The notes under the pieces are model-generated. The model was given only the letters and a program-made list of their open reading frames with translations. It was not told where the DNA came from and ran no database searches. Positions 51,601 through 57,665 of a stretch of DNA of 64,000 nucleotides are shown here, one piece after another. The position numbers and the translations under genes are program-made. The DNA is from an uncultured Dokdonia sp. Its GTDB lineage: Bacteria; Bacteroidota; Bacteroidia; Flavobacteriales; Flavobacteriaceae. The first letter of the stretch is position 1, and the number at the start of each line of letters is the position of its first letter. The DNA lies in NCBI RefSeq assembly GCF_947492535.1, contig NZ_CANLNH010000001.1, positions 186,001-250,000 of the forward strand, read 5' to 3'.

Positions 51601-51753
51601 TTATTTTTTAAAAGTTGTTTTTTTAATGACCTTATTCTTATTAATAATCTTTAATTCATATTCACCTTCATGCAATGCATTTACATTGAGGTAAATTTTA
51701 TGATCAGGCATTGGAGGGAGTTTACCTTTGAGTTTTTTAGACTTTTTATTCAT
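51601..51753 (-). CDS. Small basic protein, first gene of the secreted-protein operon
   Basis: The 50-residue, very Lys-rich protein begins MNKKSKKLKGKLPPMPDHKI, with YLNVNALHEGEYELKI in the middle and a basic end. It has no signal peptide and no recognised family. The stop lies 4 bp before the next start, so it is almost certainly co-translated with the propeller lipoproteins. It looks like the short beta-strand proteins found next to TPR regulators in some Flavobacteria, but I cannot name it. Confidence 0.6.
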   Translation of the reverse strand: MNKKSKKLKGKLPPMPDHKIYLNVNALHEGEYELKIINKNKVIKKTTFKK

Positions 51754-51897: not shown

Positions 51898-54663
51898 TTA
51901 AGCCTTTTTGGCGTAATCAGAAGGGGAAACCCCGTAGTGTTCTTTGAAGCATTTTGTAAAGTAAGAGTGGTTATTAAAACCAACAGCATACCCTACTTGT
52001 GATACATTTATATCAGATTTTTTAAGTAGTTGTGCGGCTAATTTTAGACGCTGACTTCGTATAAATTCAGTAGCAGAAAGTCCTGTAAGTGCTTTTAGTT
52101 TTCTATGCAATTGCATACGACTCATACCTAATGCCTTTGAAAAAGATTCGGTTGTAAAATCAGATTCTATGATTTGTGTATCGACTATTTCTTTAAGATT
52201 GTCAAGAAAACGTTCATCGGCACTATTAACAGCAATGTCTTTAGGAATTAATACCACTTCTTGGCTAAATCGTTCTTGTAATCTTTTGCGTGTTTCTAAT
52301 AGATTATGCGTAGTGGTTTTAAGAATCTCTGTATTAAACGGCTTTGTGATATAAGCATCTGCACCAGTTTCTAAACCTATAAGTTGATTTTCATCACCTG
52401 CTTTAGCGGTAAGCATTACAATAGGAATATGAGAAGTGGTCTCAGAAGCTTTACAATTTCGCGTAAGCGTAATCCCATCATCTTTCGGCATCATCAAATC
52501 TGTAATGATCAAATCAGGAACGATAGAAGATGCCATTTCAAATCCTTCCTGACCATCTTGCGCTGTGTGAATAGTGTATTGATCTTCAAATAACGAACTC
52601 ACATACGTTCTTAAGTCTGCATTATCATCTACGATAAGAAGGATAGGATTGGTGTCTTTAGAGAAAATATCGACTTCTTCTTGGATGATTTCTTCGTTAG
52701 AGGTTGTTATTTTCGCTCCTGCATCGTTGGCAGGCAGGTTTGTGAAAGTGGACATTTCCATAACTCCTGGTGTTTTTTCACTATCTAAGAATGCCGATTC
52801 TGTCACTGGAATTGTAATGGTAAATGCCGTTGTGTTATGCTCACTTTGCGCATGAATGGTTCCTTTGTGTAAAGAAACTAACTCTTTTGAAAGCGCAAGG
52901 CCAATTCCCGTTCCTGCGGTCTGTTCATCTGTGCGGGCAAAACGATTAAATATGGTCTGTAATGCCTCGTCAGAGAGTGTAGCTCCAGAATTTTGAATAG
53001 TGAAGTGTAGTTTTTGATTTTCTATAGCGCCTGTAATTACTATAGATTCTCCATCTGGACTATATTTTAGAGCATTACTGATCAGATTTGTGATGATCTT
53101 TTCTAAGGCGTCAGCATCAAAATAATAGGTGTTTTCTGGGACGTTAATAGTAGCAGTGTATTCTTGATTGTTTTCTTGGGCTAGGTAAGTAAAAGAACTG
53201 GTTAATGATTTTAAAAAAAGCGGGAGATCACCTTGTTGTACGTTGAGTTTAAAATGCCCTGCTTCTACTTTTGAAAGGTCTAGTAATTGATCTACGAGGG
53301 TGAGTAAGCGTTTGGTATTGCGTTTTGCGATGCTTAGATTTTTCTTTTCAGACGTGTCAATATCAGGTTTCTGTAATTGTTCTTCTATAGGACCAGAAAT
53401 GAGAGATAGCGGTGTTCTAAATTCATGAGAGATGTTTTCAAAAAAGCTAGATTTCATAGTATCTAACTCACGTAATTTGTTATTTATTTTTTTGCGGTTT
53501 CTAAATCCTAAAAAGAGGAATATTCCTGCGATAGATGTGAGCCCAAGACCTCCTAATAAGAGGTTGCGTTGGTTTTTTTTCTGAGCTTCTACAGCTTTAT
53601 TTTGAGCTTGAAGTAAGGCAATTTCTTGTTCTTTTTTTTCGGTTTGATATTTGGTTTCGAGTTCTTTGGCTTTGTCTTTTCGATCTCGATTTGCAATGCT
53701 ATCGTCAACTATTTCATTTAAAATGATATACTGATAAGCATTCTTATAGTCCCCTATTTTACTATAAACATCTGATAAGTTTTTGTAAATACCAGATAAA
53801 CGACCATAATCAGGCGGATCTAATGAAGCAAAGAAATCGGCGCTTTGCTTATTCATAGTTATACTTTGATCGTATTTTTTAGAGAAAAAAAGTGCATTTG
53901 CATATTCCTTTTGGCCTAATGCTCTTACAAAATTAGATCTGCCATTATTTTTAATGTCATATGCAAGTTTAACATACTTAATATAATTAATTGTATCACC
54001 CATTTTGAGGTATAGCGATCCGTAATCATTATAATAGTTTCCTAGGTAAATATATTTTAAATAATGGTTTTCTACTTTATTAAAATATTTTTGCGCTTCT
54101 TCAAAATTACCTAGGTTACTTTGAACACTGCCTATTCTTGTATAAGTCTTTCCGATGTCTATAGAATCTTTTAAATCTTGTGCTACAATTAGTGCTTTCT
54201 TATAATAAAACATAGCATTGTTATATGCTTCTTTTTTTTCACTATCGGAGGTTATAGAACGTCTATATAGTTCTGCGCGATCTGAATGTGCTATGTATAA
54301 ATCTCTGTTCTTTATATTATGTTCCGTTAAGATAGAGTCAACTTTTTGATAATAACCCATTGCATCACCTATATTCCAACGATAGAATTCTACAGCACCC
54401 ATAAATAGATAGTTTCGCCCAATGGTTTCAGGGTCATTAAAACGTAATGAATAGGTTAATGCTTTTTTTGCATACATCATTGCGCTATCGGGTTTTGTAG
54501 CACGTCTATATTGGTTGCCTAGTTTTATGTAGTTTCTTGCAGTTATACTATCATTAGTTGAATTTTTTATAATAAAATTTAAGGAATCTATTTTCTGTTT
54601 GTTTTGCCCATTGGTAGAGTAGATAGTTAACAAAATAAGCGTTAGTGAGTATAAAATCCGCAT
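51898..54663 (-). CDS. Hybrid two-component system protein: TPR sensor, histidine kinase, receiver, AraC output
   Basis: In this 921-residue protein a signal peptide is followed by TPR-type helices (about 40-330, periplasmic), a coiled coil, a membrane helix (about 367-387), a histidine kinase with His413 (ENISHEFRTPLSLI), ATPase motifs (NLISNALKYSPDG, GTGIGLAL), a receiver domain with Asp722 (DLIITDLMMPKDDG, IVDDNAD), and an AraC-type double HTH (about 815-921, KLAAQLLKKSDINVSQVGYAVGFNNHSYFTKCFKEHYGVSP). Such one-protein systems sense periplasmic or surface signals and drive adjacent genes. It stands directly upstream of the secreted-protein operon and has a related palindrome before its own start. 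Confidence 0.95.
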   Translation of the reverse strand: MRILYSLTLILLTIYSTNGQNKQKIDSLNFIIKNSTNDSITARNYIKLGNQYRRATKPDSAMMYAKKALTYSLRFNDPETIGRNYLFMGAVEFYRWNIGDAMGYYQKVDSILTEHNIKNRDLYIAHSDRAELYRRSITSDSEKKEAYNNAMFYYKKALIVAQDLKDSIDIGKTYTRIGSVQSNLGNFEEAQKYFNKVENHYLKYIYLGNYYNDYGSLYLKMGDTINYIKYVKLAYDIKNNGRSNFVRALGQKEYANALFFSKKYDQSITMNKQSADFFASLDPPDYGRLSGIYKNLSDVYSKIGDYKNAYQYIILNEIVDDSIANRDRKDKAKELETKYQTEKKEQEIALLQAQNKAVEAQKKNQRNLLLGGLGLTSIAGIFLFLGFRNRKKINNKLRELDTMKSSFFENISHEFRTPLSLISGPIEEQLQKPDIDTSEKKNLSIAKRNTKRLLTLVDQLLDLSKVEAGHFKLNVQQGDLPLFLKSLTSSFTYLAQENNQEYTATINVPENTYYFDADALEKIITNLISNALKYSPDGESIVITGAIENQKLHFTIQNSGATLSDEALQTIFNRFARTDEQTAGTGIGLALSKELVSLHKGTIHAQSEHNTTAFTITIPVTESAFLDSEKTPGVMEMSTFTNLPANDAGAKITTSNEEIIQEEVDIFSKDTNPILLIVDDNADLRTYVSSLFEDQYTIHTAQDGQEGFEMASSIVPDLIITDLMMPKDDGITLTRNCKASETTSHIPIVMLTAKAGDENQLIGLETGADAYITKPFNTEILKTTTHNLLETRKRLQERFSQEVVLIPKDIAVNSADERFLDNLKEIVDTQIIESDFTTESFSKALGMSRMQLHRKLKALTGLSATEFIRSQRLKLAAQLLKKSDINVSQVGYAVGFNNHSYFTKCFKEHYGVSPSDYAKKA

Positions 54664-54735: not shown

Positions 54736-54757
54736 ATGTAACAGATATGTGTTACAT
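54736..54757. promoter_or_regulatory. ATGTAACA-N6-TGTTACAT palindrome upstream of the sensor gene
   Basis: Two perfect 8-base half-sites, ATGTAACA (54736-54743) and TGTTACAT (54750-54757), face each other 73 bases before the sensor start. They share the half-site with the palindrome between the sensor and the lipoprotein operon, so both may be operators of the AraC domain. Confidence 0.55.
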
Positions 54758-54821
54758 ATATTATAATATGACTAAGATGTATGCTTTAACAAGGGTCAAG
54801 CGAAGATTTATGATAAATAAA

Positions 54822-54851
54822 AGGCTATCTAAAATACATTTTAGATAGCCT
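54822..54851 (-). terminator. Terminator of the double-glycine peptide gene
   Basis: AGGCTATCTAAAAT pairs perfectly with ATTTTAGATAGCCT, 64 bases beyond the peptide stop. It separates the peptide transcript from the sensor gene. Confidence 0.8.
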
Positions 54852-54915
54852 CTACTATTTTTAAACCATATATAATATGATTCGATTAGATTTTTGTTTT
54901 ATAATAACCTAATTG

Positions 54916-55089
54916 TCAAAAAGGAGTGCCAGGTTGGTTAACATATCCTCCATCAAATCTATGACAATCTGCACTTATATTTCCAAGATCATCGGTACAA
55001 AAGTTAGTGTCATTACCTCCATGTATTACTTTTAAACTAGAACTTTTCAATTCTTTGATTCCTTTAATTTGTAACATTTTCTTTATCAT
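54916..55089 (-). CDS. Short peptide with double-glycine leader (bacteriocin- or pheromone-like)
   Basis: The 57-residue peptide has a leader of about 25 residues ending in IKGIKELKSSSLKVIHGG, a good match to the double-glycine leaders cut and exported by peptidase-containing ABC transporters (L.-x-EL and a final GG). The predicted mature part has about 32 residues, starting NDTNFCTDD, with two Cys and a Gly/Pro-rich end. It has an A-rich leader typical of Bacteroidota and its own terminator. ATG at 55089 is taken; the ATG at 55077 would give the same leader without four residues. I recognise no homologue. No transporter gene is in the window. Confidence 0.72.
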   Translation of the reverse strand: MIKKMLQIKGIKELKSSSLKVIHGGNDTNFCTDDLGNISADCHRFDGGYVNQPGTPF

Positions 55090-55118: not shown

Positions 55119-55126
55119 TAAATATA
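55119..55126 (-). promoter_or_regulatory. Possible -7 box of the double-glycine peptide gene
   Basis: On the minus strand this reads TATATTTA, one base off TAnnTTTG, 30 bases before the ATG. No clear TTG element is seen upstream. Confidence 0.4.
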
Positions 55127-55190: not shown

Positions 55191-57665
55191 TTAATTAATC
55201 TGATAAATCAAAATACTATTCGCATCTCCTTGTGTAACAAAACCTACATTTTTATTGCGTTCTAAATAATCAAAATGTGCGGGACCAATTCCGTATACTG
55301 GGAAGTTGTCTATAGATTCTCCTTTCTCATTAAAACACAATACCTGACTCGTTTCTGTATTGGTAAGTGTAATATATATGTTCTTACCTACTTTAAAAAT
55401 TTCTGGGGTTGTATAGGTGCCGTATTCTAATTCTATGGCTTTGTTATTAATGATTAAGTTGTTTTCTAATAAAGAGGTCATGGTATTTCCCCATGTGTTT
55501 ACAATAGTGTTAGTGGTATTGTCACTTTGAGTGCGTGTTAGTTTCCCACTGGTATTAATACTTATTTTGCCTCCATTGATGTCATAGGTGGTAAATGTAT
55601 TTTTCTCTTTGAAAATGGGTGTATCTCCAAATTGTATCGTTTCTTTTACAGTAACACGTGATTTTCCTGTACGACTTAAAATATTGAGTTTCCCACTGTT
55701 TTCTGCAATAACGATATAATCTTTGTTGCTTATTCGTATGTGTTTAGGCGGGTAAATAATAACACTTTCTGCTTTTGTAAAGCCAAATCCTTTGACAATT
55801 TTTGCTTCTTTATCAAACATCTGTAATTGTGTTCCTTGTGTGATGATAAAACGATACTTACGATTGTTTTCATAATCAAATACAGCGAGTGGCTGTGTGA
55901 TCGTCTCATTAAAGCTAATAGGAAAGGGTTTTACTTCATTACCATTACGATCTAAAATATAGAATGTCTTTGGAGTGACAAAGGCTAATTGGAGTCTGCC
56001 ATTACGATATAAATCTACTTGCTGTACATCTCCTAAAATAGGACCATCCAATTCTTTTTGCCACAATAATTTTCCACTATTGCTTATAAGGTGTAATGCA
56101 TTTGACTCGTCTTGTAAAAGCACATCTGCGCCCTTGGTACGGTGGTTTTTGACAAGTTGAGGAGCGCGTGCAATAGATTTTTCTAGTTTTGTACTCGCAA
56201 TTTGTGTAATAGCCCCTTCTTTTTGGGTGTTTTCATTTTTATTGATTACCGCATTCAAATGCATGAAATTTGAATCTTGAATAAGCTGTAATGCAGCAAA
56301 TGGATAGGCCGTGATTTCTATATTTTTAAAAGCCTTTGCTTCTTTCTCAGAAACCAAATCTTGATAAGCAATCTTTTCTGTATTTGTGATTCTCAGGAAG
56401 CTAGCAGCATCGCTTAATTGGGATTTCGTATTCTTATACGCTCCAGAAAATAGTAGCGTTGCGTTATTCTGATAGTTTGCAATAATAGTCTCTAAGTGTT
56501 CTTGCTCTTCTGCAAACACATAATAACTATCTAAAACGCAGTATCGTTGTGCGGAAGGTGTTTTGATAATAGACTCATACGTTTTTGTGAATAGTGTTTT
56601 CTCTTTAAAACGATATATAGGAACCTGTCTATATACCGTTTCTTCTTCTTTGAGAGAAGCAACAGCATCTTCTGTAAGTGTAGGGTCTATGGTATGTGCA
56701 GCAATTACAACCCCAGCATCTAATTGGATACTTCCTATTTCATCAAAAGTGCTTAATACATCTTCTGCTTTTATGTCAAATTTTAAAGGATCTATTTTAC
56801 GAAGATCTGCCAAGTTGTTTTTAAAAGCACTCCAATTATCATAAGAGATTGAGGTGACACTTTGAGCAACAATAGGTGCTATCTGATCTATCGTATTGGT
56901 AACAGGTTTCGTGTTTTTAAAGACTAATAAACGTTGCTCTGTCGAGTCTTTTGTAAGTGTAACACCGCTTATTTTAATATCATTCTGAGAAATGTCTAAA
57001 TCTCCTAATGACCATGAAAAAGCCTCTCGTAATGGATGCTCTTTGGATGTTGGATATAAGGTCGTCCATAGATCATCCATTTCACTCCCTTTTAAGAGAA
57101 TACTGGCTGTTGCATTACTCGTAGCATTATAAGCGGTTATAAAATCCTTGTCTGTTGCAAAGCTGTTATCTTCTTGCTCTCTAAGGGTATTCTCTAACAG
57201 TAATTGAGACGTACTCGCTATAAAAACATCATCTATGATCAGGGTATAAAAAGTAGCGTCAGGTGAGGTTATTTTTGTAATTGCAGGCGTTGTATTGCCT
57301 ATGGTCGTTTTTTTAATTTTAGTACTGTCTGGAGTAAAAACTTTTGCTGTTGCTTTTGTGATAACACTTACATCATAGGTGTTATTTCCTATTTGGGTGT
57401 AGCAAATTAAGGTTTCGTTTTTTGATTTTATATCTTGTAATAACGGAGTGCTACTGGCTAAAAAATCCTGATACCTTGTTTTTGCAAAAGCTTGCATAAG
57501 ATCATTATTCTTAATGGCAGATCGCAACCCTTTAAGATTAGTAGTTTTTACAATAACACTCGCTTTACGGGGGATATATTTTGTAAGTGTTGATGTTGCC
57601 GTAGATTGCTCTTGCTCACAAGCAATAAAACATAAGACCATTGCAATTAAAAAAAATCGTTTCAT
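55191..57665 (-). CDS. Large lipoprotein of unknown function
   Basis: The 824-residue protein has a lipobox (FIAC) followed by EQEQST. Residues 30 to about 440 resemble a DUF3352-like domain (LTKYIPRKASVIVKTTNLKGLRSAIK...). Residues 480 to the end look like a PQQ-like propeller (LLQDESNALHLISNSGKLLWQKELDGPILGDVQQVDL..., FYILDRNGNEVKPFPI, LNILSRTGKSRV). The same gene next to rnhB is a pattern I recall from Flavobacteria. A TACATTTG box (minus strand, 57685-57692) lies 19 bases upstream, so it need not depend on rnhB. It probably acts in the periplasm or at the surface. Confidence 0.75.
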   Translation of the reverse strand: MKRFFLIAMVLCFIACEQEQSTATSTLTKYIPRKASVIVKTTNLKGLRSAIKNNDLMQAFAKTRYQDFLASSTPLLQDIKSKNETLICYTQIGNNTYDVSVITKATAKVFTPDSTKIKKTTIGNTTPAITKITSPDATFYTLIIDDVFIASTSQLLLENTLREQEDNSFATDKDFITAYNATSNATASILLKGSEMDDLWTTLYPTSKEHPLREAFSWSLGDLDISQNDIKISGVTLTKDSTEQRLLVFKNTKPVTNTIDQIAPIVAQSVTSISYDNWSAFKNNLADLRKIDPLKFDIKAEDVLSTFDEIGSIQLDAGVVIAAHTIDPTLTEDAVASLKEEETVYRQVPIYRFKEKTLFTKTYESIIKTPSAQRYCVLDSYYVFAEEQEHLETIIANYQNNATLLFSGAYKNTKSQLSDAASFLRITNTEKIAYQDLVSEKEAKAFKNIEITAYPFAALQLIQDSNFMHLNAVINKNENTQKEGAITQIASTKLEKSIARAPQLVKNHRTKGADVLLQDESNALHLISNSGKLLWQKELDGPILGDVQQVDLYRNGRLQLAFVTPKTFYILDRNGNEVKPFPISFNETITQPLAVFDYENNRKYRFIITQGTQLQMFDKEAKIVKGFGFTKAESVIIYPPKHIRISNKDYIVIAENSGKLNILSRTGKSRVTVKETIQFGDTPIFKEKNTFTTYDINGGKISINTSGKLTRTQSDNTTNTIVNTWGNTMTSLLENNLIINNKAIELEYGTYTTPEIFKVGKNIYITLTNTETSQVLCFNEKGESIDNFPVYGIGPAHFDYLERNKNVGFVTQGDANSILIYQIN

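Follow-up and report, generated by a model that had tools for sequence, protein, structure and literature searches.

What does a 57-codon gene lying by itself between a lipoprotein gene and a hybrid sensor gene of an uncultured Dokdonia sp. encode, and does the sensor read its product? The preliminary description of this locus proposed a double-glycine (GG) peptide that might be a bacteriocin, a signal for the sensor, or a modified peptide. Here, we report an analysis of the gene, its relatives, and its possible exporters, starting from a 64,000-nucleotide stretch of DNA (the window).

The genome holding the window (G000; 73 contigs, 4.86 Mb) was placed in a genus set of 18 genomes, 4 with the peptide (G000, G002, G013, and G014, one for each of four species) and 14 others. 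The slot behind the lipoprotein gene was read in 16 of the 18, leaving out G012 (lipoprotein gene cut off by the contig end) and G015. Conservation and dN/dS comparisons are between species.

The peptide gene and its neighbors

The features of the locus are as follows.

55191..57665, minus strand: lipoprotein, 824 amino acids (aa), upstream of the peptide gene, given as context only (homologue in 18/18 genus genomes)
55119..55126, minus strand: promoter-like TATATTTA, resembling the Bacteroidota -7 box (matched by eye; stretch aligns in four species; putative function)
54916..55089, minus strand: precursor peptide gene, 57 codons plus stop (translation, syntenic copies in three species, dN/dS)
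55015..55089, minus strand: leader, 25 aa, ending in GG (leave-out leader HMM, leader family alignment)
54919..55014, minus strand: core, 32 aa, two Cys, net charge -4 (K/R minus D/E; translation)
54820..54853, minus strand: intrinsic terminator between the peptide and sensor genes (15-pair stem plus T run; aligns in four species)
54738..54755, no strand assigned: palindrome GTAACA-N6-TGTTAC upstream of the sensor gene, given as context with no tie to the peptide implied (motif search)
51898..54663, minus strand: hybrid sensor, TPR - HisKA/HATPase - REC - AraC (Pfam; membership in a peptide system only putative)
53644..54603, minus strand: TPR region of the sensor, strongly divergent among species (species comparisons)

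Along the direction of transcription, the order is rnhB (named from sequence), lipoprotein, peptide, terminator, and hybrid sensor; as first described, the peptide and sensor genes share a strand, and the peptide gene comes first. Translation of 54916-55089(-) gave the expected 57-aa precursor, composed of leader MIKKMLQIKGIKELKSSSLKVIHGG and core NDTNFCTDDLGNISADCHRFDGGYVNQPGTPF, and the GG leader and two-Cys core were both recovered. An HMM trained on the leaders of 16 paralogues (the peptide and its three orthologues excluded) matched the peptide at E 6e-10, ranking it first of 559 window open reading frames (ORFs) of ≥25 aa (runner-up, E 1.9; best reversed-sequence control, E 0.18). This score is partly circular, because some of the 16 leaders were first found via similarity to the peptide; conservation is therefore the stronger, independent argument for the gene. 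The frame is intact in the same syntenic slot in G002, G013, and G014, and counted dN/dS, covering four of the six pairs of the four species, was 0.18 (G000-G013), 0.30 (G000-G014), 0.23 (G013-G014), and 0.33 (G000-G002). The original claim was to be judged on leader and frame in relatives; both are conserved in the three other species, and it stands. The peptide gene is real, and its frame is under purifying selection; a chance ORF or a non-coding RNA is ruled out by dN/dS together with the leader score.

No above-cutoff match to the peptide was found in Pfam-A or NCBIfam, it was not among the matches of the NCBIfam lanthipeptide leader models, and its sole NCBIfam match, below cutoff, was to EntF, a bacteriocin induction factor (E 0.034). 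The core was absent from 298 other family genomes searched, a sample that held one other genus member (G003) and none of the three orthologue species. Among the matches listed in the literature searched, which took in few subscription papers, none describes the peptide or an expansion of GG peptides in Dokdonia.

The gene has its own terminator, as proposed: besides the aligned stem and T run, the stretch 54810-54920 folds at z -5.3. The possible promoter fared less evenly. A TTTGTA..TTTA stretch aligns in the four peptide-bearing species, and TATATTTA was likened by eye to the Bacteroidota -7 box, which we take to be TAnnTTTG; sigma-70-type matches, however, were not clearly above shuffles (7 found versus a mean of 4.1, standard deviation 2.4). 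The promoter is a consensus match whose function is putative.

The palindrome has no second match in the window (expectation, 0.25 at up to one mismatch), is exact in G013, G003, and G008, and has one mismatch in G014 and G002, so that it is kept in all six sensor-bearing genus genomes. It also stands behind the lipoprotein gene in G010, where no sensor follows (L055 4442-4459). It is a candidate regulatory site or a relic.

A membrane span was judged by eye to lie between the TPR region and the kinase of the sensor. The sensor matches HK_Porph_FimS (NF053520) across residues 4-616; it differs in scoring 138.6 bits against a cutoff of 600 and in adding REC and AraC domains. Its TPR region (53644-54603, compared with orthologues in L016, L031, L033, L056, and L064) has been replaced between close relatives, and TPR classes cross species and genus lines; that of G008 is nearest to one from another genus (G056, 45%). 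Downstream of the sensor lies a gene for a 50-aa protein (51601-51753(-); IYLNINHLxKGxYxLKIIHKNKVIKKTTFKK). By a loose pattern, written after the sequences were seen, such a gene stands behind the sensor at 32 of 45 loci (27/40 outside the genus, 5/5 inside). In one relative, the protein has a sub-cutoff resemblance to the end of a type IX secretion sorting domain, as if the sorting tail stood on its own; the copy in the window did not match the model of that domain.

The leader family and its candidate exporters

The searches first proposed for other GG-leader genes and for a leader family returned many. A leader profile built from 20 leaders had 44 matches at E≤1 in G000, 49 in G002, 53 in G013, and 53 in G014, versus 0-6 in each of the remaining 14 genomes of the genus. 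A stricter threshold of E≤1e-3 leaves 32 of the 44 G000 matches, at 25 places (neighbors within 5 kb merged). At that threshold, the leader occurs in 49 of 397 family genomes (G000 included), six of which, besides G000, have at least 9-19 matches; high per-genome counts are lower bounds, because at most 20 candidates were scored per genome. In one clade of four species, the leader family that includes the peptide numbers some 30-50 genes per genome. Six leader-type paralogues were scanned, with no above-cutoff match in Pfam-A or NCBIfam.

Among 36 G000 cores from examined loci, the number of Cys ranges from 2 to 7, with 31 at 5-7 and this peptide at 2, and the spacing C-(1-2)-[DN]-x-[DE]-C occurs in 11 of the 36 (shuffled mean, 0.3; maximum, 3). 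A G000-G002 comparison held 22 rows, of which 11 were used as single-copy syntenic pairs, in some of which the flanks matched on just one side; the 11 multi-copy rows (L027, two; L030, five; L023, three; L099, one) were dropped because orthology was unclear. Core identity was 77-100% in eight pairs; in the remaining three, which include this peptide, it was 41-43%. Its leader was 44% identical, versus 64-96% for the other ten, and in the family alignment it has no QK ahead of the last leader residues, where QK is usual. G000 and G002 share the tail YVNQPGTPF despite differing middles; G013 and G014 are without it.

The genome search for C39-peptidase ABC transporters returned five C39 matches in G000, two of them complete C39-ABC exporters (contigs C9 and C1) and three of them shorter C39-like proteins. 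All five lie outside the window, in agreement with the original remark that no exporter is nearby. Of the further suggestion that a transporter would act in trans, the availability of two complete exporters is borne out, and the action itself we infer from neighborhood and co-occurrence. A full-length C39 exporter is present in all four peptide-bearing genomes, and in the exporter tree the C9 copy clusters with one exporter each of G002, G013, and G014 (support, 100/99). No C39 match at E≤1e-3 was found in G003 and G008, which have the sensor and no peptide. An exporter is not sufficient for the expansion, because six genus genomes without it also have a C39 match.

The C9 exporter belongs to a class I lanthipeptide region (L024) that contains LanB-type and LanC-like genes together with several short precursors of the CC type that resemble one another; the C1 exporter belongs to a grasp-with-spasm cluster (L029).

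The three shorter C39-like proteins (L023 8095-9717, L030 5036-6655, and L030 12085-13686) lie near runs of Cys-rich GG peptides. The L023 protein carries VKOR and thioredoxin domains, and the other two are alike in length and N-terminus. In an alignment, five C39-like proteins (from G000, G011, and G017) were without the Cys-containing segment of the exporters' peptidase; because this segment is absent, they would bind leaders and help to oxidize cores, and not cut. A role in leader-guided disulfide formation is possible. In G012, a peptide of this leader type (E 3e-11) stands between an ORF named C39-VKOR-like on the basis of its N-terminus alone and the genes for a C39-ABC exporter and HlyD; G017, with leaders at E 1.8e-4 and 6.4e-4 at the locus, and G011, whose best leader reaches E 0.04, show comparable rows. 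Because G000 codes elsewhere for complete exporters and for C39-like proteins, one of them with VKOR and thioredoxin domains, and because the leader type directly adjoins such an exporter in G012, we consider export in trans and a disulfide likely.

Role of the peptide and the adjacent sensor

With somewhat better than even confidence, and from sequence comparisons, we take the gene to encode the precursor of a small secreted GG peptide that is exported in trans by a C39-ABC exporter and acts outside the cell. The leader would be bound by a C39-peptidase ABC exporter from another part of the genome, for which the C9 copy is a candidate, and cleaved off behind its GG. Together with HlyD and a channel in the outer membrane, this exporter would set free the acidic 32-aa peptide, whose one disulfide may be formed with the aid of a C39-like/VKOR/thioredoxin protein. 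Outside, the peptide would most likely act on other bacteria, through bacteriocin-like antagonism or communication, and such a role is our best guess. The adjacent sensor would, on present evidence, be a neighbor and not a dedicated receptor. Several observations count against this account, namely that the leader is the most divergent of 11 and without QK, that the core has two Cys where most have 5-7, that the tail is missing in G013 and G014, and that the C9 exporter sits in a lanthipeptide cluster. Classical bacteriocins are cationic, and the acidic two-Cys core does not point to one. No immunity gene was recognized by eye among the neighbors; its absence would be weak evidence, because bacteroidetocins also have no obvious ones, according to the accessible part of their description (PMC6671954).

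The chief alternative, which we consider unlikely, is that peptide and sensor form a signal-receptor pair, with the exported peptide binding the periplasmic TPR region, the sensor controlling downstream surface-protein genes, and the pair diversifying in the manner of pherotypes such as ComX/ComP and AgrD/AgrC. The two genes are adjacent in 4/4 species, and between G000 and G002 (150-base bins) identity is 71-98% in the flanks, 56% in the main peptide bin, 41-54% in the TPR region, and 79% in the sensor promoter bin between them. We kept the pair as a rival because the peptide gene and the TPR region are both islands of low identity in this comparison. Across all six pairs of the four peptide-bearing species, the TPR region is 15-33% identical while the kinase is 83-92% identical; G000 and G013 agree in peptide type as well as in TPR class, and G002 differs in both. 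Furthermore, a GG-leader peptide, though from a different class, stands behind eight of nine TPR-AraC regulators in G000. The broader form of this idea, a pherotype system of Gram-negative bacteria, with a membrane-spanning TPR kinase that would read a GG peptide in the periplasm, as one of several TPR/AraC-peptide pairings in the genome, strikes us as decidedly unlikely.

Occurrence speaks against pairing. Forty sensor homologue loci outside the genus (from 37 genomes, among the best-scoring matches listed) were searched for a GG-leader pattern within 2.5 kb upstream, and 0/40 had a GG peptide there; the three pattern matches were on the opposite strand and not leader-like. Of the 12 peptide-less genus slots read, ten have no sensor, and the other two (G003 and G008) keep lipoprotein and sensor with no peptide (0/2). 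Co-occurrence of the kind that would mark a dedicated receptor is thus not seen across species. Nor are leader places in G000 enriched near histidine kinases (1/25 within 5 kb, versus 2.2 expected). The terminator separates the two genes, and the sensor's common small neighbor (32/45 loci) is the different, 50-aa gene.

The divergence of the TPR region also has counterparts where there is no peptide. With 40 of 46 sensors usable, peptide-less pairs show TPR replacement (kinase/TPR identity, 73%/29% for G338/G174, 67%/25% for G225/G087, and 65%/22% for G003/G008), while other peptide-less pairs keep both regions alike (96/96, 77/76, and 74/75). G014 combines a G000-type peptide with a different TPR class that groups with another genus, and the TPR region of G002 is nearest to that of the peptide-less G003; peptide types and TPR classes are therefore only partly concordant. 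Cores diverge to the same extent in two of the ten other single-copy orphan peptides, neither of which lies within 5 kb of a kinase match. The suggestion that the sensor reads the peptide is not supported as a rule, and the sensor as dedicated receptor was set back to a rival by occurrence, kinase proximity, domain divergence, TPR classes, and the orphan-peptide control.

The TPR-AraC regulators form a set of their own. They are ~575 aa long, and in G000 the GG peptide lies 41-175 nucleotides behind on the same strand in eight of nine cases (L113, L114, L115, and L116; the exception is in L112); the same holds for 2/2 in a single G002 locus (L193) and 2/2 in a single G014 locus (L197). Three of these peptides were scanned, one reaching the cutoff of lanthipeptide leader model L1a and two falling below. 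TPR genes have been noted before in Bacteroidales ribosomally synthesized and post-translationally modified peptide (RiPP) clusters, in the accessible part of PMC10352776.

An improbable alternative is that the peptide is a decaying or neutral orphan, carried by duplication, with export or activity lost. In favor of this reading are a leader more divergent than the other ten compared, the small number of Cys, and the lack of the C-terminal tail in two of the four orthologues; against this, dN/dS is 0.18-0.33 in four pairs, the frame is intact in 4/4 species, and the terminator is kept.

We think it very improbable that the peptide is a lanthipeptide or graspetide modified by the LanB/LanC or grasp-with-spasm enzymes of the genome. 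Both full C39 exporters lie in clusters of these enzymes, and one peptide of this leader type is inside the LanB/LanC region; however, most peptides beside those enzymes carry other leaders, no lanthipeptide leader model matches the peptide, and in G012 and G017 peptides of the same leader type stand by C39-VKOR-like ORFs with no LanB/LanC seen at the locus.

Known systems and biological meaning

The secreted peptide favored here belongs to a known kind, the GG-leader peptides exported by C39 transporters, in which a leader of ~15-30 aa ending in GG is shared while cores differ. The peptide has such a leader, and C39 exporters are present in the genome, two complete and outside the window. The expansion is striking but not unprecedented. 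The closest models, leader_Chryseo (NF047798) and TIGR04149, also describe GG-type leaders of Bacteroidota small peptides; they differ in leaving the peptide unmatched and in matching two of six paralogues, both below cutoff.

Bacteroidetocins (proposed class IIf) are likewise Bacteroidota GG-leader Cys peptides with a C39-type exporter and a thiol oxidoreductase. As far as the accessible part of their description goes (PMC6671954), they have a leader of 15-16 aa and a compact four-gene region, and the two studied mature peptides have 42 aa, four Cys, and positive charge, whereas the peptide here has a 25-aa leader and a 32-aa core with two Cys and a net charge of -4, with no C39 domain in the window and no oxidoreductase recognized by eye among its neighbors. 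From class I lanthipeptides, the peptide differs in having no lanthipeptide leader match and in having LanB/LanC on another contig, not in cis. Prochlorosins and SyncA share the arrangement of many precursors and few enzymes; in the portions of PMC10783134 and PMC9872173 at hand, theirs are lanthipeptides made by one promiscuous synthetase, whereas here a disulfide is predicted and the shared part would be the exporter. Bacteroidales RiPP clusters also combine GG-type precursors with C39 exporters, and some contain TPR-domain or histidine kinase/response regulator genes for which pheromone binding has been suggested; according to the available part of that report (PMC10352776), their modification enzymes are in cis, whereas here the gene is a lone one in a flavobacterium.

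The G000 stock amounts to some thirty to forty genes with one export tag. The locus brings to light a set of Cys-rich peptides in a marine flavobacterium that are specific to its clade and probably exported, and the role of such peptides can readily be compared across the four related species. The adjacent sensor, in which the sensing domain has been exchanged between close relatives, makes it directly testable whether TPR kinases of Bacteroidota sense peptides.
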